Of a stretch of 64,000 nucleotides of DNA, positions 31,844 through 49,976 are shown piece by piece; the stretch's first letter is position 1, and every line of letters begins with the position of its first letter. The stretch lies in assembly GCF_029953285.1 (NCBI RefSeq), contig NZ_JASAOI010000029.1, positions 1 to 64,000 of the forward strand. The letters are read 5' to 3'. Position numbers and translations under genes: made by a program. This stretch comes from Yinghuangia seranimata. GTDB lineage: Bacteria > Actinomycetota > Actinomycetes > Streptomycetales > Streptomycetaceae. Under the pieces are notes generated by a model that saw nothing but the letters and a program-made list of their open reading frames with translations, was not told the DNA's origin and made no database searches.

Positions 31844-31999
31844 GTGGCTGCGGACAGGTTCGCCCGTCTCTACCGAGAACTCGTTGACAGCCTGGCCACG
31901 TCCTGCGGGATCCGGACCTCTGGGTTCGACGTCGCGCCCTGGTTCTCCGAGACGGGCCGGGAGTATCTGAGTGCTCGGCTCAGGCCGTTTCGGGCGTAG
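31844..31999 (+). CDS. Short 51-residue reading frame, possible gene remnant
   Basis: GTG 31844 opens a 51-residue frame with coding-like composition: ADRFARLYRELVDSLATS, then VAPWFSETGREYLSARLRP. It looks like the C-terminal end of a larger protein or a small independent gene. It starts 15 bp after the palindrome at 31811-31828. Its end overlaps the convergent Rieske gene by 20 nt. No family recognised. Confidence 0.35.
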   Translation: MAADRFARLYRELVDSLATSCGIRTSGFDVAPWFSETGREYLSARLRPFRA

Positions 32000-33218
32000 G
32001 CGGGTCGGCGGGCGGCGCGGCTCCGCAGGTTGAGGCGTCGGGGCAGGGGGCGGGTGTGGTGGCGAGGGGGGTGCCGTTGGTTCGTAGGACGTGGCGGAGT
32101 TGGAGGATCAGGGGGAAGACCTCGTGGTTGTGGTCGGCGCCTTGTTCGTCCCAGGCGCGTTGTTCGGCTTCGACTGCCATGCGGTCTTCGGCGAAGACGC
32201 GTTCGGTGAAGCGGCGGATGAAGGGCCAGGCCAGGTTCAGGGCGCCGGGGAGGCGGGGTTTGGCGATCGACAGCAGGCCGTAGACGTGGTTGGTGCGCTG
32301 TTGGGCGTCTTCGGGGACGTAGGCGACCCACAGGGAGAAGGCCGGGAGTTCGGCCTTCTCTGGGACCAGGTGCAGGGTTTGGTAGGGGTATTGGGTGCGG
32401 ATCGTGATGACGTCCGGGGACTTCGATCCGCCGACGCCTTCGGCCGCCAGGAGTCCCGCGCCGCGGTCTTTGCGGCCGCCTGCGTGGGTGAAGAGGTAGC
32501 GGGCCTCGACGAAGTCCGGTCCCGCGTCGCTGCCGAGGAGGGTCGGCTGGATGCGGCCCAGGATGCCGCGGTGCAGGAACTGGTGGTTCATGTCGAGGAG
32601 GTTCTCGTGCATGAAGGAGTAGTGGCACCGGACGGTGCGCGAGAACATCATCGTCTTGTGGCTCGGCGAGGCGCATTCGGGCAGGTTCGGTAGCTCCGCC
32701 TCGTCGGCGCGGGCGGGGTCGCCGGGGTAGACGAAGACCAGCCCGTACGCCTCGCGGACCGGGTAGGCGCGCACCCCGCGCGGCGGGCGGTCCACGCCCT
32801 TGGGGAGGTACGGGATCTGCGAGATGCGGCCGGTCCCCCGGTACGCCCACGCGTGGTAGCAGCAGCGCAGGAGATCGCCTTCCACGACGCCCATGCTCAG
32901 CGGGACCTGCCGGTGCGCGCAGCGGTCCTCGAGCGCGTACACGGTGCCGCTCGTGCCGCGGTACAGGGCGATCCGCTCCCCCGCGAAGCGCGCCGCGAAG
33001 GTCTTGCCGGTGCGTACGGCAGACGAGACGGCCACGGGGTACCAGAAGTCGGGGTGGATGCCGACGCGGCGCAGGTCCGGGAGGCCGGCGGGGGGTGGGT
33101 ACGGCCGATCCGGCTCCATCTGCGCGGCGTCGCCGGCGGTTGCGGCTGAGGCTGCGGCGGCGTCTGCCGCCGCGGCTTCGGCGGCCGCGGCGCGTACTGG
33201 TCGCTGCGTCCCGGTCAT
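31980..33218 (-). CDS. Rieske [2Fe-2S] oxygenase-type protein linked to the hydrogenase locus
   Basis: A 412-residue Rieske-type protein. The cluster ligands are C-x-H in RCAHRQVP (near residue 98) and C-x2-H in CCYHAW (near 118). A mononuclear-iron motif follows at about 205-217: NLLDMNHQFLHRG, giving N-x2-D-x2-H-x3-H where oxygenases such as VanA have H-x4-H. The first ~45 residues are an Ala-rich low-complexity lead. ATG 33218 has a GGGAGGG site. It is divergent from hhyS across 401 bp. It could be a true oxygenase or, by inference, an electron carrier for the hydrogenase. Confidence 0.82.
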   Translation of the reverse strand: MTGTQRPVRAAAAEAAAADAAAASAATAGDAAQMEPDRPYPPPAGLPDLRRVGIHPDFWYPVAVSSAVRTGKTFAARFAGERIALYRGTSGTVYALEDRCAHRQVPLSMGVVEGDLLRCCYHAWAYRGTGRISQIPYLPKGVDRPPRGVRAYPVREAYGLVFVYPGDPARADEAELPNLPECASPSHKTMMFSRTVRCHYSFMHENLLDMNHQFLHRGILGRIQPTLLGSDAGPDFVEARYLFTHAGGRKDRGAGLLAAEGVGGSKSPDVITIRTQYPYQTLHLVPEKAELPAFSLWVAYVPEDAQQRTNHVYGLLSIAKPRLPGALNLAWPFIRRFTERVFAEDRMAVEAEQRAWDEQGADHNHEVFPLILQLRHVLRTNGTPLATTPAPCPDASTCGAAPPADPPTPETA

Positions 33219-33619: not shown

Positions 33620-34675
33620 ATGGGTGCTGCATCGACCACCGCCTCCGATACCGACGTGGTGCACATTCTGTGGATCAACGCCGGGCTCAGCTGTGACGGC
33701 GACTCGGTGTCGCTGACCGCCGCAATGCAGCCGAGCATCGAGGAGATCGTCACCGGCGCATTGCCCGGCCTACCGCCGATCGCGGTGCACTGGCCGTTGA
33801 TCGACTTCGAATGCGGGCCCGTCCAGGGCGCGGACAACTTCGTCGAATGGTTCTTCAAGGCCGACCGCGGCGAACTGGAGCCGTTCGTCCTGGTGATCGA
33901 GGGCTCGATCCCCAACGAGTCGATCAAGGCCGAGGGCTACTGGTGCGGCTTCGGCGACAACCCGGAGACCGGCCAGCCGATCACCACCAGCGAGTGGCTG
34001 GACCGGCTCGCTCCGAAGGCGACCGCGGTCGTCGCGATCGGGACGTGCGCGACGTACGGCGGCATCCACGCCATGGAGGGCAACCCGACCGGCGCCATGG
34101 GCGTACCGGACTACCTCGGCTGGGACTGGACGTCGAAGGCGGGCCTGCCGATCGTGTGCGTGCCCGGCTGTCCGATCCAGCCGGACAACTTCGCCGAGAC
34201 GCTGACCTATCTGCTGTACCAGCTCGCCGGGTCGGCGCCGATGATCCCGCTCGACGACAAGCTGCGCCCGCGCTGGCTGTTCGAGGCCACCGTGCACGAG
34301 GGCTGCGACCGCGGCGGCTACTACGAGCAGGGCCAGTTCGCCGACGAGTACGGCACGCCGGAGTGCCTGGTCCGGCTCGGCTGCTGGGGCCCGGTGGTCA
34401 AGTGCAACGTGCCCAAGCGCGGCTGGATCAACGGCGTCGGCGGCTGCCCGAACGTGGGCGGCATCTGCATCGCGTGCACGATGCCGGGCTTCCCGGACAA
34501 GTTCATGCCCTTCATGGACGCGCCGCCCGGGTCGATCGTGTCGTCCGGCGCGAGCTCGGCGTACGGCGCGGCCATCCGCCGACTGCGTTCGATGACCCTC
34601 AAGACCGTCGACAAGGAACCCAAGTGGCGGCACACCGGCAAGCGCATCACGACCGGCTACCGGCCGCCGTGGTGA
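33620..34675 (+). CDS. hhyS: [NiFe] hydrogenase small subunit, group 1h (high-affinity)
   Basis: A 351-residue iron-sulfur subunit that passes electrons away from the NiFe site. The proximal-cluster entry is INAGLSCDGDSVSL: Cys25-x2-Asp28, where standard hydrogenases have C-x2-C. A 3Cys-1Asp proximal [4Fe-4S] ligation is the known hallmark of group 1h/5 enzymes. Further ligands are in AIGTCATYGG, VPGCPIQPDN, HEGCDRGG, LGCWGPVVKCNVPKR and CPNVGGICIACTMPGFPDKF. There is no twin-arginine signal, so the enzyme is cytoplasmic-side. ATG 33620 after GAGGAGG. First gene of a 15-gene transcript. Confidence 0.95.
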   Translation: MGAASTTASDTDVVHILWINAGLSCDGDSVSLTAAMQPSIEEIVTGALPGLPPIAVHWPLIDFECGPVQGADNFVEWFFKADRGELEPFVLVIEGSIPNESIKAEGYWCGFGDNPETGQPITTSEWLDRLAPKATAVVAIGTCATYGGIHAMEGNPTGAMGVPDYLGWDWTSKAGLPIVCVPGCPIQPDNFAETLTYLLYQLAGSAPMIPLDDKLRPRWLFEATVHEGCDRGGYYEQGQFADEYGTPECLVRLGCWGPVVKCNVPKRGWINGVGGCPNVGGICIACTMPGFPDKFMPFMDAPPGSIVSSGASSAYGAAIRRLRSMTLKTVDKEPKWRHTGKRITTGYRPPW

Positions 34676-34702
34676 CGGCCGCGACGGGTCCGTCCGCCGC
34701 GC

Positions 34703-34744
34703 CGGCGACCGCCGTCACGACAGCAGTCGTGGCGGCGGTCGCCG
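34703..34744 (+). other. Intercistronic hairpin between hhyS and hhyL
   Basis: A 19-bp stem (34703-34721 with 34726-34744) with a 4-nt AGCA loop and one G-U pair, inside the 129-nt gap between the two structural genes, the longest gap before hypA. It may act as an RNA-processing, stability or attenuation element setting subunit levels. Confidence 0.65.
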
Positions 34745-34804
34745 CACATCCCACTCAACCCGCACAGCGCTGACACCCCCGGCACGAAAGGCAGCACGAA
34801 CGCA

Positions 34805-36586
34805 ATGGCACCGACGACCACGGCCGGGGACGGCAGCGGCCTTGTCGAGATGTCCTGGGATCCGATCACCCGGATCGTGGGCAGCCTCGGCATCCACACC
34901 AAGATCGACTTCAAGCAGAAGAAGGTCGCGGAGTGCTACAGCACTTCGTCGGTCTTCCGCGGCTACAGCGTCTTCATGCGCGGCAAGGACCCGCGCGACG
35001 CGCACTTCATCACCAGCCGGATCTGCGGCATCTGCGGCGACAACCACGCCACGTGCTCGGTGTACGCGCAGAACATGGCGTACGGCGTCAAGCCGCCACA
35101 CCTCGGCGAGTGGATCATCAACCTCGGCGAGGCGGCCGAGTACATGTTCGACCACAACATCTTCCAGGAGAACCTGGTCGGGGTCGACTACTGCGAGAAG
35201 ATGGTCCGCGAGACCAACCCCGGCGTGCTGGAGCAGGCCGAGCGCACCGAGGCGCCGCACGCGGCGGACCACGGCTACCGCACCATCGCCGACATCATGC
35301 GCTCGCTCAACCCCATCGAGGGCGAGTTCTACCGCGAGGCGCTGCAGGTCAGCCGCTACACGCGCGAGATGTTCTGCCTGATGGAGGGGCGGCACGTCCA
35401 CCCGTCCACGCTGTACCCGGGCGGTGTCGGCACGGTCGCGTCCGTGCAGTTGTTCACCGACTACCTCACGCGCCTGATGCGGTACGTCGAGTTCATGAAG
35501 AAGGTCGTCCCGCTGCACGACGACCTGTTCGACTTCTTCTACGAGGCGCTGCCCGGGTACGAGGAGGTCGGCCGCCGCCGGATCCTGCTCGGCTGCTGGG
35601 GCAGCCTGAACGACCCGGATTACTGCGACTTCACGTACGCGAACATGACGGACTGGGGCCGGCGCATGTTCGTGACCCCCGGCGTCGTCGTGGACGGGAA
35701 GCTGGTCACCAACGACCTGACCCGCATCAACCTGGGCATCCGCATCCTGCTGGGCAGTTCGTACTACCAGGACTGGGAGGGCCAGGAGCAGTTCGTCACG
35801 CACGACCCGCTCGGCAACCCGGTCGACCCGCGGCACCCGTGGAACCAGCACACCATCCCGGCCCCGCAGAAGCGCGACTTCGACGACAAGTACAGCTGGG
35901 TCATGTCGCCGCGCTGGTTCGACGGCACCGACCACCTGGCGCTGGACACCGGCGGCGGCCCGATCGCGCGGCTGTGGTCGACGGCGCTGTCCGGGCTGGT
36001 CGACATCGGGTACATCAAGGCCACCGGGCACAGCGTGCAGATCAACCTGCCGCGCTCGATGACCAAGCCCGAGGTCACGTTCGAGTGGAAGATCCCGCAG
36101 TGGAGCAACGCCATCGAACGCAACCGCGCGCGCACCTACTTCCAGGCGTACTCCGCCGCGGCCGCGCTGCACTTCGCGGAGAAGGCGCTCGCCGAGGTCC
36201 GCGCCGGGCGCAGCCAGACCTGGGAGAAGTTCGAGGTCCCGGACGAGAGCATCGGCTGCGGCTTCACCGAGGCGGTGCGCGGCGTGCTGTCGCACCATAT
36301 GGTGATCCGCGACGGCAAGATCGCGAACTACCACCCGTACCCGCCCACTCCGTGGAACGCGAGTGTGCGCGACAGCTACGGGACTCCGGGGCCGTACGAG
36401 GACGCGGTGCAGAACACCCCGATCTTCGAGGAGAACAGCCCGGAGAACTTCAAGGGCATCGACATCATGCGCGCCGTACGCAGCTTCGACCCGTGCCTGC
36501 CGTGCGGCGTGCACATGTACGTCGGCAACGGCCGCACGCACAAGCAGCTCCACGTCCCCACCGGCCTCAGCGGGCTCACGGGATGA
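34805..36586 (+). CDS. hhyL: [NiFe] hydrogenase large subunit, group 1h
   Basis: A 593-residue catalytic subunit that binds the NiFe(CN)2CO centre and oxidises H2. L1 motif RICGICGDNH (about residues 72-81) and L2 motif DPCLPCGVH (about 562-570) supply the four nickel cysteines. A ~23-residue tail follows the final histidine and is the probable substrate of the endopeptidase at 39807. Downstream overlap with the NifU-domain gene is ATGA. With hhyS it forms the O2-tolerant enzyme known to consume atmospheric H2 in Streptomyces, Mycolicibacterium and Rhodococcus. Confidence 0.96.
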   Translation: MAPTTTAGDGSGLVEMSWDPITRIVGSLGIHTKIDFKQKKVAECYSTSSVFRGYSVFMRGKDPRDAHFITSRICGICGDNHATCSVYAQNMAYGVKPPHLGEWIINLGEAAEYMFDHNIFQENLVGVDYCEKMVRETNPGVLEQAERTEAPHAADHGYRTIADIMRSLNPIEGEFYREALQVSRYTREMFCLMEGRHVHPSTLYPGGVGTVASVQLFTDYLTRLMRYVEFMKKVVPLHDDLFDFFYEALPGYEEVGRRRILLGCWGSLNDPDYCDFTYANMTDWGRRMFVTPGVVVDGKLVTNDLTRINLGIRILLGSSYYQDWEGQEQFVTHDPLGNPVDPRHPWNQHTIPAPQKRDFDDKYSWVMSPRWFDGTDHLALDTGGGPIARLWSTALSGLVDIGYIKATGHSVQINLPRSMTKPEVTFEWKIPQWSNAIERNRARTYFQAYSAAAALHFAEKALAEVRAGRSQTWEKFEVPDESIGCGFTEAVRGVLSHHMVIRDGKIANYHPYPPTPWNASVRDSYGTPGPYEDAVQNTPIFEENSPENFKGIDIMRAVRSFDPCLPCGVHMYVGNGRTHKQLHVPTGLSGLTG

Positions 36587-37152
36587 CGGCCGAGCAGACG
36601 GGGCTGCGGGTCCAGGAGTCCCTGGACCGGCTGACCGGCACCGGGGCGCAGGCCGCCGCCGAGGACCTGGTGCGCGAGATGATGGCGTTCTACGGCGAGG
36701 GCCTGGCGGCGGTCGTGCGGCTGCTGCCGGGCGACGCGCTGGAGCCGCTGCTGGACGACCCGGCGGTGGCCGGGCTGTTGGTGCTGCACGACCTGCACCC
36801 CGAGGACGTCGCCGCCCGAATCGCCCGGGCGCTCTCGGCGCTTCCCGAACAGCCGGTGGACATCGAGGAGTTCGATCCGGACACGGGCGTTCTGCGGCTG
36901 CGCCGGCGCGGCGGCGCCGACGGCGGGTGCGGATGCGGCGGGGGCGCGGCGGTGCGCGAGGCCGTCGAAGGCGTCCTCGCCTGCCATGCGCCGGAGGTCG
37001 CGTCCGTCGACATCGCCGAGCCGCCGAAGCTGCTGCAGATCGGCGTGCGGCCGCCGGAGCCGGCCCGCCGTGGTGAGCCTGTGGAGGCCGCGCACCGCGG
37101 CGCTCCCCTGAACGCCGCGCACCGCGCCGAGGCCGTGGAGATCGCTCGATGA
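36583..37152 (+). CDS. NifU C-terminal-domain protein, hydrogenase-associated
   Basis: A 189-residue protein. The first ~80 residues are helical (VREMMAFYGEGLAAVVRLLPG, then LVLHDLHPEDVAARI). Residues ~80-165 form a NifU C-terminal-like alpha/beta domain. The usual C-x2-C cluster site is here C-x-C within DGGCGCGGG (about 115-119), followed by REAVEGVLACHAPEVASVDI. NifU domains carry Fe-S clusters, so a role in delivering clusters to HhyS or electron transfer is inferred. Coupled to hhyL and to the next gene by ATGA overlaps. Confidence 0.8.
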   Translation: MTAEQTGLRVQESLDRLTGTGAQAAAEDLVREMMAFYGEGLAAVVRLLPGDALEPLLDDPAVAGLLVLHDLHPEDVAARIARALSALPEQPVDIEEFDPDTGVLRLRRRGGADGGCGCGGGAAVREAVEGVLACHAPEVASVDIAEPPKLLQIGVRPPEPARRGEPVEAAHRGAPLNAAHRAEAVEIAR

Positions 37153-37790
37153 GCGAATCCGCCGGCTCGGGGACCGCGCTGCTGCGCCGGCTGCGCGCCC
37201 CCTCGGCACCCCCGCAGGAGGCCTGTGCCCTGTGCGGCGCCCGACTCGGTTCCGAGCACCGGCACTTGGCCGACATCGAACGCCGGGCCCTGGCCTGCTG
37301 CTGCGGCGCGTGCGCCATGCTGTTCGACCGGCCGGGTGCGGCCGGCGGGCGGTTCCGCTCGCTGCCCAGTCGCGTCCTGGTCGACCCCGACCACCACGTC
37401 GACGCCGCTGTCTGGGCGGCGCTCGGCATCCCGGTGGGCACGGCGTTCGTCCTGCGCGACGCCGCGCAGGACCGCGTCGTCCTGTTCTACCCCAGCCCCG
37501 CCGGAGCCACCGAGAGCCAGGCCGACGACGACGCCTGGCGGACCCTGCGTCAGGCCACCCGCCTGGCCGGGCTGTTGGAGCCGGACGTCGAGGCGCTGCT
37601 GCTGCGCCGTGACGGCGACCGGGTCGACTGCTACCTGGTGCCGGTCGACGCCTGCTACGAACTCGTCGGCCGCATGCGGCTGCACTGGCACGGCTTCGAC
37701 GGCGGCTCCGTCGCCCGCTCCGAACTCGACGCGTTCTTCGGCCGGTTGGCCGAACGCTCCGACCATCTCGCCGCTCGGGAGTCCGCGTGA
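37149..37790 (+). CDS. DUF5947-family protein, hydrogenase-associated
   Basis: A 213-residue protein of a family found next to group 1h hydrogenases. Cysteine-rich N-terminus: CALCGARL (near residue 27) and LACCCGACAMLF (near 49), suggesting a zinc or Fe-S knuckle. A beta-rich region around VLFYPSPAG and a WHGFDGGSVARSELDAFF end follow. No enzyme motif seen. ATG 37149 overlaps the stop of the NifU-domain gene. Its fixed place in the operon suggests a maturation or electron-transfer role. Confidence 0.75.
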   Translation: MSESAGSGTALLRRLRAPSAPPQEACALCGARLGSEHRHLADIERRALACCCGACAMLFDRPGAAGGRFRSLPSRVLVDPDHHVDAAVWAALGIPVGTAFVLRDAAQDRVVLFYPSPAGATESQADDDAWRTLRQATRLAGLLEPDVEALLLRRDGDRVDCYLVPVDACYELVGRMRLHWHGFDGGSVARSELDAFFGRLAERSDHLAARESA

Positions 37791-38416
37791 CCGGCGTTTC
37801 CTTCGCGTGCACCGAGGTGCGCGCAGATCCGTACGCGGCCGGGCCCACCCTGGTGTTCCGGCTGCGCGTCACCGCGTCCGAGGGTGAGCGCGTGCACGCG
37901 GTGGCGCTGCGCTGCCAGTTGCGCATCGAACCCGCGCGGCGCTCGTACTCGACCGCCGAAGGCGAGGGTCTGGCCGACCTTTTCGGCGAGCGCTCGCGTT
38001 GGGCGACGTCGATGAACCCGGTGCAGTTCGCGCAGGTCTCGCTGATGGTGCCGTCGTTCACCGGCGAGACCGACATCGACATGCCGGTGCCGTGCACGTA
38101 CGACATGGACGTCGCCTCGACCCGCTACCTGGACGCCCTGGAGGCCGGCGACGCGTCGCTGCTCCTGCTGTTCTCCGGCACGGTCTTCTCCGGGCCGGCC
38201 GGGTTCCAGGTCGCGCCGGTCGGCTGGGACCGGGAGGCCCGCGTCCGCATGCCCGCGAAGGTGTGGCGCGACATGATGGAGCAGCACTTCCCCGGCTGCG
38301 GCTGGGTACGGCTGCCCTCGGACGTGATGGACACCCTGCTGGCCTACCGCTCGCGCCGCGCGCTGCCGTCGATGGAGGCGGCGGTGCGCGAACTGGTCGA
38401 GGGGAACGCCCGGTGA
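37787..38416 (+). CDS. DUF6084-family protein, hydrogenase-associated
   Basis: A 209-residue protein. It starts with a beta-rich module (LVFRLRVTASEGERVHAVAL). SYSTAEGEGLADLFGERSRW is a recognisable family stretch, and FPGCGWVRLPSDVMDTLLAY closes the fold. No cofactor motif is obvious. GTG 37787 overlaps the previous stop (GTGA), and its own stop overlaps the next GTG, so expression is tightly coupled. Known only by co-occurrence with this hydrogenase type. Confidence 0.75.
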   Translation: MTGVSFACTEVRADPYAAGPTLVFRLRVTASEGERVHAVALRCQLRIEPARRSYSTAEGEGLADLFGERSRWATSMNPVQFAQVSLMVPSFTGETDIDMPVPCTYDMDVASTRYLDALEAGDASLLLLFSGTVFSGPAGFQVAPVGWDREARVRMPAKVWRDMMEQHFPGCGWVRLPSDVMDTLLAYRSRRALPSMEAAVRELVEGNAR

Positions 38417-39807
38417 CCGCCCCCGTGTTGCCGACCGGCGTCGAGGAACGCTTCGCCGCGGCCCGGCAGATCGCCGACGCGGTGCTCTTCGAGGGCTACG
38501 TCCTCTACCCCTACCGCGCCTCTGCGGCGAAGAACCGGCTGCGCTGGCAGTTCGGCGTCCTGGTCCCGCCCGGCTACGGCACGGACCGGGCCGAGCACTC
38601 GCACCAGCGCACCGAGTGCCTGATCGAGCCGCGCGGCGCGGACGCGCGGCTCGCCGTCGAGCTGCGGTTCCTGCGCGCCCAACGCCGCACCGTGCAACGC
38701 GCCACCGAGGACGGCGCGTTCGTCCCGGTCGAGGCGCTGGAGCTCGCGGACCGGCGCCTGGTGCCGTGGGACGAGGGTGCCGAGGAACGCGTCGGCGTCG
38801 ACGTACCGGTGGCCGACCTGCTCGGCGACGGCGTCGAACACCTCTTCTCGCTGGCGGCCGCCGACGACGAGGAAGCGGTGTACGAGGACGGCGTTCTGGT
38901 GGGCCGTCTGCTGCGCCGCCGCGAACGCGTCGACGGCGTCATCCGTCTGACCGCCACCGAAGTACCGGGCCCCTACGCGGCGTTGCGGCTCTCCGCGGTG
39001 GTCTCCAACACTTCCTCGTGGAGCCCGCACGACGGCGCCGAGCGCGACGACGCGCTCGCCCACTCCCTCATCTCCGCCCACGTGCTGCTGGGTCTGGCGC
39101 CCGGCTCGTTCGTGTCGGTCACCGACCCGCCCGAGTGGGCCAAGGCCGCGGTCGCCGAGTGCCGCAACGAGTACTGCTGGCCGGTGCTCGTGGACGGGCC
39201 GGGACGCGACGACGTCATGCTCGCCTCGCCGATCATCCTCGAGGACCGCCCGCAGATCGCGCCGGAGAGCCCCGGCGTGCTCTACGACGCCACCGAGATC
39301 GACGAGATCCTCGCGCTGCGCACCGCCGCGCTGACCGACGAGGAGAAGCGCGAGGCACGCGGCACCGACGCACGCGCCGGCGCGGTCGTGGACCTCGCCG
39401 ACTCGCTGCCGCCCGAGGTGCTGGACCGGCTGCACGGCGCCGTCCGGGCGCTGCGCGAGGTCACCGACACGCGGGTGGCCGCGACCGAACGGCCCGAGAC
39501 CCCGTGGTGGGACCCGGGCGGCGACCCCAGTGTGGATCCGGAGCACGACCATGTCGTGGTCGACGGCGTCCGGGTGGCCGCGGGCAGCCGGGTGGTCCTG
39601 CGTCCGGGGCAGCGGCGCACCGACGCGCAGGACGCGTTCCTGCACGGGCGTACCGCACTGGTCGAGGCCGTCCTGCACGACGTGGACGGCGCGGTGCACG
39701 TCGCGGTGACCATGGACGGCGACCCCGGCGCGGACCTGTGGCGCGCGCAGGGGCGGTTCCGGTACTTCCAGCCGGACGAGATCGCGCCCGTGCCGGAGGT
39801 CCCCTGA
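38413..39807 (+). CDS. Uncharacterised hydrogenase-operon protein, 464 residues
   Basis: I recognise no characterised family. It opens with FEGYVLYPYRASAAKNRLRW, has a beta-rich first half with ECLIEPRG, VELRFLRAQ and VSNTSSWSPHDG, then NEYCWPVLVDG, ASPIILEDRPQIAPESPG, and a helical LTDEEKREARGTDARA region. A C-terminal ~75-residue barrel-like part (VVDGVRVAAGSRVVLRPG) resembles a small regulatory or HypC-like beta-domain but I cannot assign it. GTG 38413 overlaps the previous stop; the stop overlaps the protease ATG (TGATG). Probably a scaffold or maturation factor. Confidence 0.75.
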   Translation: MTAPVLPTGVEERFAAARQIADAVLFEGYVLYPYRASAAKNRLRWQFGVLVPPGYGTDRAEHSHQRTECLIEPRGADARLAVELRFLRAQRRTVQRATEDGAFVPVEALELADRRLVPWDEGAEERVGVDVPVADLLGDGVEHLFSLAAADDEEAVYEDGVLVGRLLRRRERVDGVIRLTATEVPGPYAALRLSAVVSNTSSWSPHDGAERDDALAHSLISAHVLLGLAPGSFVSVTDPPEWAKAAVAECRNEYCWPVLVDGPGRDDVMLASPIILEDRPQIAPESPGVLYDATEIDEILALRTAALTDEEKREARGTDARAGAVVDLADSLPPEVLDRLHGAVRALREVTDTRVAATERPETPWWDPGGDPSVDPEHDHVVVDGVRVAAGSRVVLRPGQRRTDAQDAFLHGRTALVEAVLHDVDGAVHVAVTMDGDPGADLWRAQGRFRYFQPDEIAPVPEVP

Positions 39808-40382
39808 TGAGCGCCTCCCCCGCGCCCGGCCGCGTCCTGGTCGCCGGGATCGGCAACATCTTCCTGGGCGACGACGGCTTCGGCGTCGAGACGCTGCGCA
39901 GCCTGGCCGCGGACGAACTGCCCGACCACGTCGAGGCCGTCGACTTCGGCGTACGCGGCGTGCATCTCGCCTACCAGGTCCTCGAGGGCTACCACACGCT
40001 CATCCTCGTCGACGCGGCCGCGCGCGGCGGCCCGCCGGGCACCGTGTACCTGATCGAACCCGAGGCGGGCCCCGTGGAGTCCGCGGCCGCCGAGCCGCTG
40101 CTCGACGGCCACCGTATGGGCCCGGACGCCGTGCTCGCCCTCCTCGGCACGCTCGCCGCCGGAACCGGCACCGTGCCTCCCGCGCGGATCCTGGTCGTCG
40201 GCTGCGAACCCGCGTCCCTCGAGGAGGGCATCGGCCTCAGCCCGGCCGTCGCGGCGGCCGTCGACGAAGCCGCGGCCCTGGTCCGCCGCCTCCTGCGCGG
40301 CGACGTACCTGCACTGGACACCCCGCGCGGCGACGTGTCGGCCGCGGACACCCGAGCACCCGGAAAGGCAGCACCGTGCTGA
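39807..40382 (+). CDS. hupD: [NiFe] hydrogenase maturation endopeptidase
   Basis: A 191-residue HupD/HyaD-family protease that removes the C-terminal tail of the large subunit after nickel insertion. GIGNIFLGDDGFG holds the nickel-ligand acid (usual GNxLxxDxGxG), VDFGVRGVHLAYQVLEGY and LILVDAA the second acid, and DGHRMGPDAVLALL the nickel-ligand histidine. A ~30-residue C-terminal extension is low complexity. Start ATG 39807 overlaps the preceding stop; its stop overlaps the DUF6893 miniprotein. Confidence 0.92.
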   Translation: MSASPAPGRVLVAGIGNIFLGDDGFGVETLRSLAADELPDHVEAVDFGVRGVHLAYQVLEGYHTLILVDAAARGGPPGTVYLIEPEAGPVESAAAEPLLDGHRMGPDAVLALLGTLAAGTGTVPPARILVVGCEPASLEEGIGLSPAVAAAVDEAAALVRRLLRGDVPALDTPRGDVSAADTRAPGKAAPC

Positions 40383-40480
40383 AGAAACTCGTCGTCCTGA
40401 GCGTCGCCGCCGCGGCCGCCGTCACCCTTATCCGCAACCTCCCCGACCTCAAGCGCTACCTCAAGATCCGCCAGATGTGA
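40376..40480 (+). CDS. DUF6893-family 34-residue miniprotein
   Basis: GTG 40376 opens a 34-residue frame: MLKKLVVLSVAAAAAVTLIR, then a basic amphipathic tail LPDLKRYLKIRQM. One hydrophobic segment flanked by lysines predicts a single-pass membrane or membrane-anchored peptide. Its 5' end overlaps the protease stop, and the stop codon lies in a 12-bp tandem repeat. DUF6893 small proteins recur in this operon in Streptomyces; a role in tethering the hydrogenase to the membrane is an inference. Confidence 0.75.
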   Translation: MLKKLVVLSVAAAAAVTLIRNLPDLKRYLKIRQM

Positions 40481-40528
40481 CGCCAGATGTGACGCCGGAA
40501 GTGACGCCGGAAGTGACGCCACATGCGG
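40469..40528 (+). repeat. 12-bp tandem repeat, about five copies
   Basis: CGCCAGATGTGA twice, then CGCCGGAAGTGA twice, then a partial variant. The first copy encodes the end and stop of the DUF6893 miniprotein. It fills part of the 169-nt gap before hypA, where a secondary promoter could also lie. Confidence 0.85.
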
Positions 40529-40649
40529 CCCGCGCTGCTGCGAACGGGTGTTGCTGTGGGCGTGGCGGACGCGTAGTGGGGTCTCGGGGGCGGGCGGACC
40601 CCTACTAATAGACGCGTCCGCTCGGCGTACCGCCCAGGGAGTGAGGCCG

Positions 40650-41033
40650 ATGCACGAAATGTCTGTCGCGCTGGCCCTGGTCGACCAGGTCGCCGAGGCG
40701 GCCCGGGCCGACGGCCGGGAGCGCGCGCTGGCCGTGCACGTGCAGATCGGCGAACTGGCGGGCGTGGTCGGCGACGCGTTGGACTTCGCCTTCGAGCTCG
40801 CGCGGGAGGGCACGCCGTTGGAGGGTGCCCGGCTGGTTGTCGAGACGGTGCCCGCGCGGGCGCGGTGCCGCGACTGCGCCGGCGAGTTCGCGGTCGGGGC
40901 CCCGCCGGACCTGACCTGTCGCGGCTGCGGCGGGACCAATGTCGAGCTGTTGAGCGGACGCGAGCTGCGGATCACCGCCGTCGAATGGGCGGACGGGCCC
41001 GCGTACGCCGCGTCCGCGGGCCAGAAGGGCTGA
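40650..41033 (+). CDS. hypA: Hydrogenase nickel-insertion protein HypA
   Basis: A 127-residue nickel metallochaperone. MHEMSVA at the N-terminus gives the nickel-binding His2. The zinc site is two C-x2-C pairs, CRDC and CRGC, about residues 73-92. Works with HypB to load nickel into HhyL. ATG 40650; 4 nt before hypB. The 169-nt gap upstream is the only long gap in the second half of the locus. Confidence 0.95.
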   Translation: MHEMSVALALVDQVAEAARADGRERALAVHVQIGELAGVVGDALDFAFELAREGTPLEGARLVVETVPARARCRDCAGEFAVGAPPDLTCRGCGGTNVELLSGRELRITAVEWADGPAYAASAGQKG

Positions 41034-41037
41034 GCCA

Positions 41038-41967
41038 ATGTGCCGCACGCATGAACTCCGGCTGGCGCTGCTGGCCCGTAACGACGGAAGCGCGACCGAG
41101 CTGCGGGAGGAGTTGGCCGCCCGCGGGACCGTTGTGGTCAATCTGCTGTCGAGCCCGGGGAGCGGCAAGACGGCGCTGCTGGAGGCCGAGCTGACGCGGG
41201 CGCGGGAGCGCGGCCTCGCGGTGGCGGCGCTGACGGCGGACCTCGCGACGGAGAACGACGCGACGCGGCTGGCGCGCTCGGGGGTTCCGGTCAAGCAGGT
41301 CCTGACCGATGGGCTGTGCCATCTCGAAGCGTCCATGCTGCGCGGCCAGTTGGACGGCTGGCTGCCGGACGGCACGCGGCTGGTGTTCGTGGAGAACGTC
41401 GGGAACCTGGTGTGCCCGGCCTCGTACGACCTGGGCGAACGGCTGCGCGTGGCGCTGATGTCGGTGACCGAGGGCGAGGACAAGCCGCTCAAGTACCCCA
41501 CGGCGTTCGGGCTGGCGAACCTGGTGGTGGTGACGAAGGCGGATCTGGCCGCGGCGGCGGAGTTCGACGAGGCGGCCTTCCTGCTGAACGTCCGACGGGT
41601 GAATCCGGGCGTGGAGGTGCTGTTCACCTCGGCGCGCAAGGGGCAGGGCGTCGGGGAACTGCTCGACCGCGCCGTCGCGGTGGCGGAGGGGGCCGAACCG
41701 CATCGCCCGGTGATGGCGGATGAGCCGGTGCAGCACACGGGGTGTACGGACGCGCACGGCGACGAGCACGACGACGGGCAGGGGCACGGGCATAGCCGTG
41801 ATCACGGGCACGGGCACGGGCATAGCCATGATCACACGCACGACCGCGGCGACGGGCATCGTCACAGCCATGGACGTACCAACGGTCGCGAGCACGGCCA
41901 GGAGACCGACCCCGTCGCGGCGCCGTCCCGGCCGCGGCCGAACCTCGCGGTCGGGGAACTGTCTTGA
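41038..41967 (+). CDS. hypB: Hydrogenase nickel-insertion GTPase HypB
   Basis: A 309-residue SIMIBI-class GTPase that drives nickel transfer. P-loop SSPGSGKTALLE (about residues 38-49), a TADLATENDA switch region, ENVGNLVCP with the conserved cysteine of the dimer metal site, and TKADL for guanine specificity. The nickel-storage histidine tract is at the C-terminus (about 228-290, with at least 15 His in HGHGHSHDH-type runs) instead of the N-terminus used by proteobacterial HypB. Start ATG 41038; stop overlaps the hypF TTG. Confidence 0.95.
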   Translation: MCRTHELRLALLARNDGSATELREELAARGTVVVNLLSSPGSGKTALLEAELTRARERGLAVAALTADLATENDATRLARSGVPVKQVLTDGLCHLEASMLRGQLDGWLPDGTRLVFVENVGNLVCPASYDLGERLRVALMSVTEGEDKPLKYPTAFGLANLVVVTKADLAAAAEFDEAAFLLNVRRVNPGVEVLFTSARKGQGVGELLDRAVAVAEGAEPHRPVMADEPVQHTGCTDAHGDEHDDGQGHGHSRDHGHGHGHSHDHTHDRGDGHRHSHGRTNGREHGQETDPVAAPSRPRPNLAVGELS

Positions 41968-44432
41968 CGCTCAGTCAGGAGCGGGACACGGCAGTACGCG
42001 AGCGCCGCCGGGTGGCCGTCGGCGGCGTGGTGCAGGGCGTCGGTTTCCGTCCCTTCGTGTACGCGCTGGCCACCGGTCTCGGGCTGGACGGGCATGTCAC
42101 CAACACCGGAGACGGCGTCCTCGCGGAAATCGAAGGCCCGGCAGAGGTGCTGGACCTCTTCTGCACGCGGGTCCGCTCCGACGCGCCGCCGTTGGCCCGC
42201 GTCGTGTCGGTGGTCGCCGAGCCGCTCGCCCCGGTCGGCGCGACGGGCTTCGCGATCGCCCCGACCGTCCAGGGGACCGCCCGTACGCTGTGCCCGCCCG
42301 ACACCGCCACCTGCGCGGACTGCCTGGCCGAACTCGCCGATCCCGCCGACCGGCGCCACCGCCACCCGTTCATCACCTGCACGAACTGCGGCCCCCGCTA
42401 CACGATCGTGACCGGTCTCCCCTACGACCGCGCGGCCACCACGATGGCCGGTTTCGCGATGTGTCCGGACTGCGCGCGCGAGTACGCCGACCCGGCCGAC
42501 CGGCGCTTCCACGCCCAGCCGATCGCCTGCCACGCGTGCGGCCCGCGGCTGTCGCTCGTCCGACCGGACGCGCCCGTGCGGGAGGGCGACGCCGCCGTCG
42601 TCGCGGCGCGGGCGATGCTCGCCGACGGCGCGATCCTCGCGGTGAAGGGCATCGGCGGCTACCACCTCGCGTGCGACGCCCGGAATCCGGACGCCGTGGC
42701 CGAACTGCGGCGCCGCAAGAACCGCGGCGACAAGCCCTTCGCGGTGCTCGCCCGCGACCTCGACGAGGTCGCCGCGTGGGTCGAGGTCGACGAGTCCGAA
42801 CGGGCTTTGCTGACCGGCCCCGAGCGACCGATCGTCCTGTTGCGGCGACGCGGGCACACGGCCGCGCCCGAGGGCCGCGACGCGCGTACCGCCGCCGCCC
42901 TCGACCACGTCGCGCCGCGCTGCCCGGACCTGGGCGTCATGCTGCCGTACGCCCCCGTCCACCATCTGCTGCTCGGCCTCCCCGGCGATCCCCCGGGGCC
43001 GACGCTGCTGGTGCTGACCAGCGCGAACCTCTCCGGCGAACCCATCGTCACGGACGACGCAGAGGCCCGCGACAAGCTGGCGCCGCTGGTCGACGGGTGG
43101 CTCACGCACGACCGTCCCATCCATGTCCCCTGCGACGACTCGGTGGTGCGCGTGGTCGACGGCGAGCCGTCGCCGGTGCGCCGCTCGCGCGGCTGGGCTC
43201 CCCTGCCGATCGCGCTGCCGCTGCCGGTGGTTCCTTCGCTCGCGGTCGGCGGGGACCTCAAGTGCGTGCTCGCGCTGGCCGAGGGCGAACGCGCTTGGCT
43301 GTCCGGGCACATCGGCGACATGGACGACCTCGCGACGCTGCGCGCGTTCGACCGGGCGGTCGAGCAACTCGGCGCGGTCACCGGTGTCGTCCCCGAGCGT
43401 GTGGCGGCCGACCTGCACCCGCGTTACCGCTCCGCGCAGCGGGCGCGCCACCTCGCCGGCGAGCGCCTCGTGCACGGAGTGCAGCACCACCACGCGCACA
43501 TCGCGTCCGTCATGGCCGAGAACGGGTTGGACGGCCGCTCCCCGATCGTCGGCGTCGCGTTCGACGGCACCGGGTACGGCACGGACGGCGCGGTGTGGGG
43601 CGGCGAGTTCCTGGTGGCGGACTACGCGGGCTTCGACCGCTTCGCGCACGTGGCGTACGTCCCGCTGCCGGGCGGTGACGTGGCGGTGCGGCGGCCGTAC
43701 CGGATGGCTTTGGCGCACCTGTACGCCGCGGGCATCGACTGGGACTCCGACCTGCCCAGCGTGCGCGCCTGCCCCGCTGACGAACTCGCCCTGCTGAAGA
43801 AGCAGTTGGACCTCGGCCTCAACTGTGCGCCGACGTCCAGCATGGGACGCCTCTTCGACGCGGTCTCCTCGCTCGCCGGGGTGTGCCACCACAGCGGGTA
43901 CGAGGCCCAGGCGGCGATCGAGCTGGAGGCGGCGGCGTTGCGACACGGGGTTCACGGGTCGCACGGGCGGCACGAGCCACAAAGCGGCGAAGGCGCACGC
44001 GACGCAGGCGGCGCCGGCATCGGCGATGCAGGCGGCTACCGCTTCGAACTCCATGACGGAGACGGCCCGTTGCGCGCCGAACCCGGCCCGGTGCTGGCCG
44101 CCGTCGCGGCCGACGTACGCGCGGGCGTGGGAACCGGGGAGATCGCGACGCGGTTCCACACGGCCGTCGCGGACCTGGTGGTACGCGTCTGCAGGGCCGC
44201 GCGCGAGCGCTACGGGGTCTCGACGGCCGCGCTGTCCGGCGGTGTGTTCGGCAACGCGGTCCTGGCGTCCGCCTGCGCGCGCGGGCTGCGCGCGGACGGG
44301 TTCACGGTGGTGCGGCACCGAGCCGTTCCGCCGAACGACGGAGGACTGGCACTCGGCCAGTTGATGGTGGCGGCCCGTGCGGCCGCCGACGAGGAGGAAA
44401 GCCCATGTGCCTGGCGGTGCCCGGCAGGGTGA
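41964..44432 (+). CDS. hypF: Carbamoyltransferase HypF
   Basis: An 822-residue enzyme that makes the CN- ligand precursor from carbamoyl phosphate and ATP and hands it to HypE. Domains in order: acylphosphatase ([15 protein letters not shown]), two zinc fingers (CADC/CTNCG and CPDC/CHACG), a YrdC-like adenylation domain ([14 protein letters not shown]), and a Kae1-like carbamoyl-transfer domain ([29 protein letters not shown]). TTG 41964 overlaps the hypB stop. The 3' end overlaps hypC by 28 nt. A His/Gly-rich insert of about 30 residues is near 660-690. Confidence 0.95.
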
Positions 44433-44758
44433 CGCGGATCCTGGAGCGGGACGGCACCCGCATGGCGGTGATGGACTTCGGCGGCGTCGAGAAGGACGTC
44501 TGCCTGGAGTACCTGCCGGATCTCCGGGTCGACGAGTACGCGATCGTGCACGTCGGTTTCGCGTTGCAGCGCCTCGACGAGGAGTCGGCGCGCAAGACCC
44601 TTGGACTCTTCGAGGAACTAGGCCTGCTCCAAGAGGAGTTCGGCGATCCGTGGGAGGCGGCCGCGGCCTCGGGTCCGGCCCTGGAGTGGGCCGCGGCGGA
44701 CGCGGCGGCAGGTGCGGCGTCGGCCGCAGCGACGGCGAGTGCGGAGGCGGATCGGTGA
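44405..44758 (+). CDS. hypC: Hydrogenase assembly chaperone HypC
   Basis: A 117-residue HypC/HupF-family chaperone. Cys2 in MCLAVPGRV binds the Fe(CN)2CO unit together with HypD, and [20 protein letters not shown] completes the small beta-barrel. The C-terminal ~40 residues are an Ala-rich extension absent from most homologues (family length ~75-90). Start lies inside hypF; stop overlaps hypD GTG. Confidence 0.94.
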
Positions 44759-45879
44759 AGTACCTTGCGGAGTTCCAGAATCCCGACTTGGCCAAGGGCC
44801 TCCTGGACGACATCCGGGCCACGGTCACCCGGCCGTGGGCCCTCATGGAGGTGTGCGGCGGCCAGACGCACACGATCATCCGGCACGGCATCGACCAGTT
44901 GCTGCCGGACGAGGTCGAGCTGATCCACGGCCCGGGCTGCCCGGTGTGCGTGACGCCGCTCGAAGTCATCGACAAGGCACTGGAGATCGCGTCGCGGCCG
45001 GAGGTGATCTTCTGCTCGTTCGGCGACATGCTGCGTGTGCCGGGCACCGACCGCGACCTGTTCCGGGTGCGCGGCGAGGGCGGCGACGTGCGGGTCGTGT
45101 ACTCACCGCTGGACGCGCTGGAGATCGCGCGTGAGAACCCGCACCGCGAGGTCGTGTTCTTCGGCATCGGGTTCGAAACCACGGCGCCGCCCAACGCGAT
45201 GACGGTCCATCAGGCCCGCAAGCAGAACATCCGCAACTTCAGCATGCTGGTCTCGCACGTGCGGGTGCCTCCGGCCATCGAGGCGATCATGACCTCGGCG
45301 GACTGCCGCGTCCAGGGCTTCCTGGCCGCGGGGCACGTGTGCAGCGTGATGGGCACCGCCGAATACCCGGAGCTGGCCGAGAAGTTCCGGGTGCCGATCG
45401 TCGTCACCGGCTTCGAGCCGCTGGACATCCTCGAAGGCGTGCGCCGTACCGTACGGCAGTTGGAGCGCGGCGAGCACACCGTGGACAACGCGTACCCGCG
45501 CGCGGTCCGCCCCGAGGGCAATCCCGCGGCGCGCGCGATGCTCGAGGACGTGTTCGAGGTGACCGACCGGGCGTGGCGCGGTATCGGCGTGATCCCTCAG
45601 AGCGGCTGGCGGCTCTCCGACAAGTACCGCGACCAGGACGCCGAACACCGCTTCGACGTCACGGGGATCAACACCTGCGAGCCGAGCGCGTGCCGCAGCG
45701 GCGAGGTGCTGCAGGGGCTGCTCAAGCCGAACGAGTGCGAGGCGTTCGGCACGACGTGCACGCCGCGTACGCCGCTCGGCGCCACGATGGTGTCCAGCGA
45801 GGGCGCGTGCGCCGCGTACTACCTGTACCGGCGGCTCGGCACCCCGGCGGCGAACCGGGAGGCGAGCCCCGTTGGCTGA
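44755..45879 (+). CDS. hypD: Hydrogenase iron-site assembly protein HypD
   Basis: A 374-residue [4Fe-4S] scaffold that, with HypC, assembles Fe(CN)2[13 protein letters not shown] carries the conserved active cysteine, [11 protein letters not shown] and GHVCSVMG the redox-active cysteines, and [14 protein letters not shown] with FGTTCTP the cluster ligands. GTG 44755 overlaps hypC; 3' end overlaps hypE by 8 nt. Confidence 0.96.
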
Positions 45880-46984
45880 CACCGTGACCAACCCCGCGGC
45901 CTCCGGCACCGCGACCGTCCCCGGGGCCGCGCCGGCGCCGGACTTCTCCAACTGGAGCTGCCCGCTCCCGCTGCGCGACCACCCTCGCGTGGTGATGGGC
46001 CACGGCGGCGGCGGCGCGATGTCCGCCGAGCTGGTGGCCAACCTGTTCGCCCCGGCGTTCGGCGGCACCGCGCTGGCAGGGCTGGGCGATTCCGCCACCG
46101 TGGCGCTCGGCGGTGCCCGACTGGCGTTCTCCACCGACTCGTACGTCGTCAGGCCGCTGTTCTTCCCCGGCGGCGGCATCGGCGACCTCGCGGTCAACGG
46201 CACGGTGAACGACCTGGCCATGAGCGGGGCCCGGGCGGCGTACCTGTCGTGCGGGTTCATCCTCGAAGAGGGCGTCGAGATGGCCGTGGTCGGCCGGATC
46301 GCCGAGACCATGGGCGCGGCGGCGCGCGCGGCCGGGGTGGAGATCGTCACCGGCGACACCAAGGTCGTCGAGTCCGGGCGCGGCGACGGCGTGTACGTCA
46401 ACACGGCCGGGATCGGGCTCGTCCCGGCCGGCGTCGACATCCGGCCGCAGCGCGCGGCGCCGGGCGACGTGGTCATCGTGAGCGGCGAGATCGGCCTGCA
46501 CGGCGTGGCGATCATGAGCGTCCGCGAGGGCCTCGAGTTCGGTGCCCGGGTGGAGAGCGACTGCGCCGCGCTCGGCGGCCTGGTCGAGGCGATGCTCGCG
46601 GTCACGCAGGACATCCACGTCCTGCGCGACCCGACCCGCGGCGGACTGGGCGCGGCGGTCAACGAGATCGCCTCGGCGGCGGGGGTGGGCGTCGCGCTGC
46701 GCGAACGCGCGATCCCCGTCCCGGACCAGGTCGCCAGCGCGTGCGCGATCCTCGGCCTGGACCCGATGTACGTCGCCAACGAGGGCAAGCTCGTCGCCTT
46801 CGTCCCACGCGACCAGGCCGACGCCGTGCTGGCCGCCATGCACGCCCATCCGCTGGGTGCCCGCGCGGCGGTCATCGGCGAGTGTGTGGACGACCACCAC
46901 GGCATGGTCGTCGCCCGAACCGCCTTCGGCGGCACGCGCGTTGTCGACCTCCCGCTGGGCGAGCAGCTCCCCCGGATCTGCTGA
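45872..46984 (+). CDS. hypE: Hydrogenase cyanide-ligand protein HypE
   Basis: A 370-residue PurM-like ATPase that dehydrates a carbamoylated cysteine to thiocyanate. [18 protein letters not shown] opens the fold, with [29 protein letters not shown] and [14 protein letters not shown] forming the nucleotide site. The protein ends in PRIC, the invariant C-terminal cysteine. TTG 45872 is the best start. Last gene of the hydrogenase transcript, followed by a terminator. Confidence 0.96.
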
Positions 46985-47788: not shown

Positions 47789-47955
47789 GACGGTTCTCCT
47801 TCCGCCGGTGCGCCGCCGTCCGCGGCGCGGTGTCGGACCGTGGTTCGGACGCCGCGCCCGGACGGATGAAGCGAATTTCGGTGGGGCGCGCCCCATCCGC
47901 GCCCGCTCCGGCTCCGAACAACCGGCGCGGGGAGGTGACCACGGGGGGTGGGCGC

Positions 47956-48582
47956 ATGCGAGGACAAGGACGAGGACGAGCCGGCGCGACACGGCCGGAG
48001 GACGGCGACGAGGCGTTGCACGCGCGGCTGGTGCACGGCGACGCGGCGGCGCTCGGCGAGGCGTACGACCTGATGGCCGGCGTGGTGCACGCGGTCGCCC
48101 TGCGGGTCAGCGGCAGCCGGTCGGCGGCGGAGGACATCGTGCAGGAGGTGTTCGTTCATCTGTGGTCGAACCCGTACGCGTTCCGACCCGAACGCGGCAC
48201 GATGCGGGGCTGGTTGTGCATGTTGGCGCACCGGCGCGCGGTCGACTGGGTCCGCGCCGAGGAGGCCCGCGACCGGCGCCTGCGGCGCCTGGGGGCGGCG
48301 GTCCGCTACACGGCAGTGCCGAGCGCCGAGGACAGCGTCGTCGCCGCGGACGAGGCCCACCGGGTGCGCGCGGCCGTCGGCAACCTCCCGGCGGCCCAGC
48401 GCGAGGCGATCGAGCTGGCGTTCTTCGCCGGCAACACCTACCGCCAGGTCGCCGAACGCCTGGGCGTCCCCGAGGGCACGGTGAAGTCCCGCATGCGCGT
48501 GGGCCTCCGACAACTCGCCGTGGCCCTGGCCCACCCGGCGCGGCCAAGGATGACCGGCGAGACGAGGGCCGGGGAGGCGTGA
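47956..48582 (+). CDS. ECF-type RNA polymerase sigma factor
   Basis: A 208-residue sigma factor. Region 2 contains SRSAAEDIVQEVFVHLW (-10 recognition), and region 4 NTYRQVAERLGVPEGTVKSRM (helix-turn-helix, -35 recognition). It resembles the SigK/SigM-like ECF groups. ATG 47956 was chosen; an upstream GTG (47935) with GGGGAG is an alternative. Its stop overlaps the start of the partner gene (TGATG), typical of sigma/anti-sigma pairs. Confidence 0.9.
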   Translation: MRGQGRGRAGATRPEDGDEALHARLVHGDAAALGEAYDLMAGVVHAVALRVSGSRSAAEDIVQEVFVHLWSNPYAFRPERGTMRGWLCMLAHRRAVDWVRAEEARDRRLRRLGAAVRYTAVPSAEDSVVAADEAHRVRAAVGNLPAAQREAIELAFFAGNTYRQVAERLGVPEGTVKSRMRVGLRQLAVALAHPARPRMTGETRAGEA

Positions 48583-49757: not shown

Positions 49758-49976
49758 CCGCCGGGGGCCGCTTCAGCTCCCGGCCGACACCCCGTGTGGC
49801 AGACCGGGATACCCACCTGCGGGCATCGGGACGACCGGTGGAGACCAACGGCCGCATAGTGGCATTGGCTCAACGACAACGGCAGCGGCGCCGTCGTCAG
49901 GGCTTGTCGGGAGCGGCGGGCACAATGCGCCTGGGCACACGACCACCAGGTGCCGGTTTTGGAGGAAGCGCTCGAA

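Follow-up and report, generated by a model that had tools for sequence, protein, structure and literature searches.

A group 1h [NiFe]-hydrogenase locus of Yinghuangia seranimata and its linked accessory genes, tentatively read as an assembly and docking module

We analysed a 64,000-nucleotide stretch of DNA from Yinghuangia seranimata (positions 1 to 64,000 of contig NZ_JASAOI010000029.1, assembly GCF_029953285.1; hereafter the window), an actinobacterium whose genome comprises 9.8 Mb in 113 contigs. Between positions 33620 and 46984 of the plus strand lies a full group 1h [NiFe]-hydrogenase locus of 14 genes, all open and arranged as hhyS-hhyL-NifU-like-DUF5947-DUF6084-P464-hupD-DUF6893-hypA-hypB-hypF-hypC-hypD-hypE. 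A first-pass annotation, made from the letters alone, had called the locus complete, with its structural pair, endopeptidase and HypABFCDE, and every one of these genes is indeed present, open and in order. The accessory set accompanies hhyL, mostly as one chain of overlapping genes that ends at the endopeptidase gene. The genes are as follows.

33620..34675, plus strand: hhyS, small subunit, 351 residues; C25-x2-D28; no twin-arginine translocation (Tat) motif and no membrane helix
34805..36586, plus strand: hhyL, large subunit, 593 residues; L1 RICGICGDNH, L2 DPCLPCGVH, C-terminal tail of 23 residues
36583..37152, plus strand: NifU-like protein, truncated HhyE type, 189 residues; N-terminal LLxLHxLHPxD region and degenerate Nfu domain (CGC)
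37149..37790, plus strand: DUF5947 protein, 213 residues; C26xxC29, H37xH39, C50xC52xxC55; PHG067 by position
37787..38416, plus strand: DUF6084 protein, 209 residues; predicted immunoglobulin-like (Ig-like) beta sandwich with C-terminal helices; PHG068 by position
38413..39807, plus strand: P464, 464 residues; DrmA-N-terminal-like region 26-276 and SH3-like barrel 371-464; PHG069 by position
39807..40382, plus strand: hupD, large-subunit endopeptidase
40376..40480, plus strand: DUF6893 miniprotein, 34 residues; single hydrophobic stretch and C-terminal tail LPDLKRYLKIRQM
40650..41033, plus strand: hypA
41038..41967, plus strand: hypB
41964..44432, plus strand: hypF, named from its sequence and from the hypABFCD order shared with Kitasatospora, without a family scan
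44405..44758, plus strand: hypC, starting MCLAVPG, named from its sequence without a family scan
44755..45879, plus strand: hypD, GTG start, named from its sequence without a family scan
45872..46984, plus strand: hypE, TTG start, named from its sequence without a family scan

Pfam matches bear out the domain names DUF5947 (9.5e-69), DUF6084 (1.5e-92) and DUF6893 (1.4e-14) that the first pass had assigned; at the thresholds used, neither the NifU-like protein nor P464 had a Pfam or NCBIfam match of its own. HhyL is 79% identical to the protein of Cupriavidus necator and 79% identical to that of Mycobacterium intracellulare, its nearest named relatives by identity lie in Streptomyces and Kitasatospora, and it carries TSRICGICGDNH and SFDPCLPCGVH, motifs as cited for group 1h (PMC5364354). 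At the proximal cluster site of HhyS, C25-D26-G27-D28, Asp stands in place of one Cys (CxxD). This CDGD is common to 85 of 86 HhyS sequences, the remaining one (L136) being cut at its 5' end, in line with the earlier reading of Cys25-x2-Asp28 as the group 1h proximal ligand. The HhyS N-terminus, MGAASTTASDTD, contains no RR and reaches a maximum KD19 of 1.31, so that the subunit has no Tat motif or membrane helix of its own; RRxF was present upstream in 4 of 86 relatives' hhyS frames, which were taken stop-to-stop and not from start codons. The group 1h assignment stands because of HhyL identity and Cys25-x2-Asp28 in HhyS, and the window enzyme is predicted to be of the cytosolic group 1h type, for which atmospheric-level H2 uptake is expected.

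Four junctions in the window, hhyL/NifU-like, NifU-like/DUF5947, DUF5947/DUF6084 and DUF6084/P464, overlap by 4 nucleotides each, P464 and hupD overlap by 1 and hupD and DUF6893 by 7, and gaps of 129 and 169 nucleotides separate hhyS from hhyL and DUF6893 from hypA. Among those of 86 loci in which both genes could be placed, the 4-nucleotide overlap is kept at hhyL/NifU-like in 70/85, at NifU-like/DUF5947 in 76/79, at DUF5947/DUF6084 in 70/79, at DUF6084/P464 in 75/78 and at P464/hupD in 71/77, counts that take the start codon nearest the overlap, are therefore biased towards it, and carry no computed chance level. The continuous stop-start overlap described in the first pass thus applies to the tight chain from hhyL to DUF6893, but is broken on either side of it. 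Overlapping stop and start codons support coordinated translation; they say nothing on fixed ratios, and the stoichiometric action that had been read from them does not follow. The same evidence bears on the idea that HhySL has some of the accessory proteins as permanent structural subunits in a fixed ratio, as the group 2a enzyme has HucM. The tight overlaps and the co-localisation of HhyE with HhyLS on native gels, reported from earlier work in the relevant part of PMC6883350, speak for this idea. Overlap, however, does not set ratios. The crystallised C. necator enzyme is also said to contain large and small subunits only, and we consider permanent subunits improbable.

HhyL and each accessory gene were sought in one set of 296 genomes of the phylum, with group 1h HhyL cut at an identity of at least 66% and fragments counted, which gave 29 genomes, 23 of them with full-length HhyL. 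DUF5947 was present in 26 genomes (25 among the 29 with hhyL, 22/23 with the full-length protein), DUF6084 in 27 (24 and 21/23), P464 in 28 (25 and 22/23) and the NifU-like gene in 28 (25 and 23/23). DUF6893, counted over the Pfam cut-off, was found in 25 genomes, 18 of them among the 29, with 15/23 for full-length HhyL. Fisher tests over the sample range from 5e-16 to 4e-31, values that the kinship of the genomes prevents from being true probabilities. DUF5947, DUF6084 or P464 occur without hhyL only in G189, G216 and G290, and in the first two the locus is cut by a contig end; the NifU-like gene lacks a group 1h hhyL in G017, G162 and G194. Frequent occurrence of accessory homologues apart from group 1h, which the first pass had named as what would speak against its proposal, was therefore not seen for four of the five genes, although DUF6893 is looser (18/25). 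Among 72,556 plasmid records, HhyL matches 12, DUF5947 and P464 match the same 12, and DUF6084 matches 10 of them, both Streptantibioticus cattleyicolor records giving no match. The order from hhyS to the protease gene is the same in Kitasatospora, M. intracellulare, C. necator and Methylocystis; in G128, G171 and S. cattleyicolor (L059), DUF6084 is missing and P464 lies upstream of hhyS. One possible exception to strict linkage comes from the aurodox cluster, whose AurHIII is tabled as a DUF6084 protein in the section concerned of PMC9361827.

These counts bear on whether the accessory genes are mere passengers with no role in the hydrogenase. In favour of this, DUF6893 occurs in 7 of its 25 positive genomes (including G150, G214 and G269) without a group 1h hhyL match; for the other four genes no evidence in favour was found. 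The strength of the association and the conservation of gene order in distant bacteria argue against it, and make passengers extremely unlikely. Several decayed or rearranged loci were also encountered. In G042 (L145 5226-6824, at a contig end) the NifU-like gene and DUF6084 are joined in one frame through an arginine- and aspartate-rich (RD-rich) low-complexity stretch and DUF5947 is missing, which is either a natural deletion or an assembly error. G150 (L146 3921-6436) has a hyp cluster that keeps hupD, DUF6893 and a decayed hhyS, in which hhyL and the four other accessory genes were not found. In G107 (L149 7307-8270) a remnant open reading frame matches parts of both structural genes, hhyS and hhyL, and the genome yielded none of the accessory genes.

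The NifU-like protein follows hhyL directly and has the N-terminal LHxLHP region, as HhyE does. Its family profile matches the NifU-like structure PDB 2z51 at 1e-21, and the window protein itself has no Pfam NifU match. At 189 residues it lacks the C-terminal two-CxxC domain, the second domain of HhyE, and shows the short CxC form, CGC, instead of CxxC. Of 85 relatives, 80 of which come from one scan that favours Streptomyces so that proportions are not those of nature, 61 have CxC in the Nfu motif, 13 the canonical CxxC, 6 a single Cys, and C. necator none, with 4 unscored; the second two-CxxC domain is present in 7 of 81 scored proteins. Residues invariant in a 28-sequence alignment (L41, H69, L71, H72, P73, R79 and P137) lie mostly N-terminal to the Nfu domain. 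Since CxxC is not conserved and the invariant residues lie largely outside that domain, a conserved iron-sulphur (Fe-S) role through it is unlikely for the whole family, Y. seranimata included. The NifU-domain label of the first pass misleads here, the cluster-binding CxxC being gone. This loss has a partial precedent in methanotrophs, where the pertinent section of PMC12319191 describes four functionally unassigned genes next to hhyL, one of them NifU-like, with a NifU domain apparently absent in one of three strains.

DUF5947 is the only accessory protein with a multi-ligand Cys/His cluster, of five Cys and two His. C26xxC29, H37xH39 and C50xC52xxC55 are invariant in 39/39 aligned sequences, including those of C. 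necator, Methylocystis and Mycobacterium; these were chosen from 79 and none was left out for the motif. The spaced motif occurs in 78 of all 79, the single miss being a 42-residue fragment. One stretch of the protein is moderately hydrophobic (KD19 1.75). Rubredoxin-type maturation proteins (HoxR/HupI) have a rubredoxin fold bearing two CxxC knuckles; DUF5947 combines CxxC, CxCxxC and HxH at the sequence level and has no significant PDB sequence match.

This site is what keeps alive an explanation by electron wiring, in which HhyE (the NifU-like protein) and DUF5947 would be the immediate acceptors linking HhyS to the respiratory chain. Such a role has been proposed for HhyE, which is MSMEG_2718 in Mycobacterium smegmatis, with MSMEG_2717/PHG067 named as another candidate acceptor (PMC6883350, in part); by gene order PHG067 is DUF5947, and its near-invariant Cys and His residues would suit the task. 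However, the NifU-like family has no conserved relay, given the rarity of CxxC and of the second Cys domain. In addition, M. smegmatis strains without HucE/HhyE show no zymogram activity and an artificial acceptor does not compensate, according to the same part of that paper. Both findings fit a role in assembly, and wiring appears somewhat unlikely.

P464 and DUF6084 have folds that look scaffold-like. Across residues 26-276, P464 has a fold like that of the DrmA N-terminal domain (PDB 7s9v), DrmA being the helicase of DISARM; residues 371-464 are SH3-like. The PADLOC DrmA profile matches 35/61 and 10/20 P464 relatives, at best 1.1e-6, and 4 of 10 proteins scanned singly, the window P464 not among them; PDB sequence and NCBIfam searches linked P464 to DrmA in no case. 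Unlike DISARM DrmA, P464 lacks RecA helicase domains, gave no helicase match and ends in the added SH3-like domain; the likeness implies no DNA role. The DISARM structure paper, in its portion on this domain, describes the DrmA N-terminal domain as having no known relatives; the similarity reported here is a first fold relationship for P464. A literature search on DrmA with NiFe hydrogenase gave no DrmA among the matches listed. Conserved Cys residues are C43 (75/79) and C103 (77/79) in DUF6084 and C250 (78/78) in P464. In G182 (L127, L151), P464 consists of its first domain only, and the locus yielded no hupD.

The DUF6893 miniprotein combines a single hydrophobic stretch (KD19 2.1) with a basic tail. 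The motif PDxxRYx(4-5)M-stop was found in 69 of 78 loci with hupD, 67 times after hupD and twice between P464 and hupD; on both strands of the 1.73 Mb of these loci it had no other occurrence. The identity of P, D, R, Y and the final Met in 69/69 follows by construction, since they are part of the search motif; the specificity of place does not. Third codon positions are the most variable (0.36, the other two 0.23 and 0.13), the pattern expected of a translated gene. Nine of the 78 loci gave no match to the motif, among them those of C. necator, Methylocystis and S. cattleyicolor. The hydrophobic stretch and the basic tail suggest a one-helix membrane peptide with a docking tail, and it may anchor Hhy. 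DUF6893 with the same tail also lies beside hyp or hupD genes with no group 1h pair nearby (G195, G205:C61). Extra copies away from hupD were seen at L179 5043-5142 (minus strand) and L178 2133-2250, one of them 3.5 kb upstream of hhyS.

Taken together, we favour a reading in which the locus encodes a cytosolic group 1h hydrogenase along with a dedicated module for its assembly and docking, a tentative judgement that falls close to even. The NifU-like protein, DUF5947, DUF6084 and P464 would work on newly made HhyL/HhyS, before or around the time of cleavage by HupD. P464, through its DrmA-N-terminal-like and SH3-like parts, and DUF6084, through its Ig-like sandwich, could serve as non-catalytic scaffolds, with DUF5947 as the main metal-bearing part, in cluster delivery, cluster protection or electron passing. 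The NifU-like protein would work mainly via its conserved N-terminal part, and the DUF6893 peptide would anchor or dock the finished enzyme at the membrane via its invariant tail. Three points favour assembly and docking over pure electron wiring: zymogram activity is lost in the published deletion phenotype, the chain of genes runs on into that of the endopeptidase, and a conserved multi-ligand site is found only in DUF5947.

Several observations weigh against this assembly and docking reading. The four larger accessory proteins match no known maturation factor in our family scans, and the conserved Cys of DUF6084 and P464 would be compatible with a metal or redox function of these two. Neither C. 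necator nor Methylocystis yielded a DUF6893. A full hhyL occurs without DUF5947 in G042, and G128 and G171 lack DUF6084. Conversely, G290 (75% complete; L141 129-945) has DUF6084 and P464 with no hhyL or DUF5947 beside them: an unrelated open reading frame lies directly upstream of DUF6084-P464-hupD. This half-module apart from hhyL is a real exception unless the remaining genes sit in the missing part of the genome. Finally, in Methylacidiphilum SolV hhyS, hhyL and hupD carry consecutive locus tags (MfumV2_978-980), yet activity is assigned to that enzyme by the authors (PMC5364354), and this arrangement suggests that the module is not universal.

One idea considered was that the module confers high affinity: Methylacidiphilum, without such genes between hhyL and hupD, has a Ks of 0.6 uM (PMC5364354). 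But C. necator, which has all four genes, presumably reaches only middling affinity, and the idea was not adopted.

The corresponding part of PMC6883350 leaves open how soluble group 1h enzymes are assembled in the presence of air and how they are handed on to the respiratory chain in the membrane. Our results turn attention to DUF5947, which keeps its ligands, and away from HhyE, which does not, and they put forward DUF6893 as a concrete candidate for attaching the enzyme to the membrane in actinobacteria. A more specific proposal would be that a dedicated machine assembles and docks these enzymes, with a helicase-free relative of the DrmA N-terminal domain as its scaffold, DUF5947 rather than HhyE as the conserved metal or redox part, and DUF6893 as the missing actinobacterial membrane anchor; in this full form we regard it as unlikely.

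Outside the hydrogenase genes, a Rieske/VanA_C-type oxygenase gene (31980-33206, minus strand) lies divergent from hhyS. It was considered as a redox partner, an idea taken from the HucE Rieske motif, and rejected because it is no conserved partner: among the 86 loci its profile matches the window and one weak case (L100, 25 bits), and in 17 further stretches it is strong in G023 (about 3 kb from hhyS) and weak in G171. A sigma-70-family, extracytoplasmic-function-like (ECF-like) sigma factor gene (47830-48582, plus strand) lies shortly downstream of hypE. Two paralogous genes with 41% identity over 291 columns (29703-30548 and 49950-50852, both plus strand) bracket the hydrogenase region, and an insertion or duplication scar is possible; the first has no Pfam match. 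A 932-residue protein (26668-29466, minus strand) has a RING-finger match under the Pfam cut-off. Elsewhere in the genome, contig C32 (L150 5917-14657) carries a second [NiFe]-hydrogenase cluster, with proteins of nicotinamide adenine dinucleotide (NAD)-binding, 4Fe-4S and small-subunit-like type and a hypF of its own, which looks like that of a group 3 enzyme.

Accessory genes in an operon with structural genes are familiar from the group 1d HupGHIJK/HoxOQRTV systems, which include a rubredoxin-type member. No such family was matched in our family scans of the window, and the relation is by analogy only. The nearest described arrangement is that of C. necator H16, where PHG064-070 of pHG1 likewise encode small subunit, large subunit, NifU family protein, DUF5947, DUF6084, an unnamed protein and protease; there DUF6893 was not found, the hyp order differs, a SIS-domain gene is added and the NifU-like protein has no Cys in its Nfu motif. 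PHG066-069, the NifU-like, DUF5947, DUF6084 and P464 genes by pHG1 gene order, appear as four open reading frames of unknown function beside maturation genes in the hofKG cluster as presented in part of PMC4377017. The Hhy locus of an M. intracellulare plasmid shares the order from hhyS to protease and has DUF6893, but places it between P464 and hupD and encodes a full HhyE-like protein (301 residues) with CxxC and the second two-CxxC domain. In Thermomicrobium roseum, conserved hypothetical proteins hhaABC are noted beside hhyLS (PMC6776052, in part). The five accessory genes had been put forward as uncharacterised; this agrees with the printed status of PHG066-069 but not with that of hhyE, which, in the portion of PMC6883350 that also notes truncated HhyE proteins, is genetically required for H2 oxidation in M. 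smegmatis. For DUF5947, DUF6084 and DUF6893, a literature search gave nothing beyond the aurodox work (PMC9361827, in part). The locus type is known, and the leads on its accessory genes are new.

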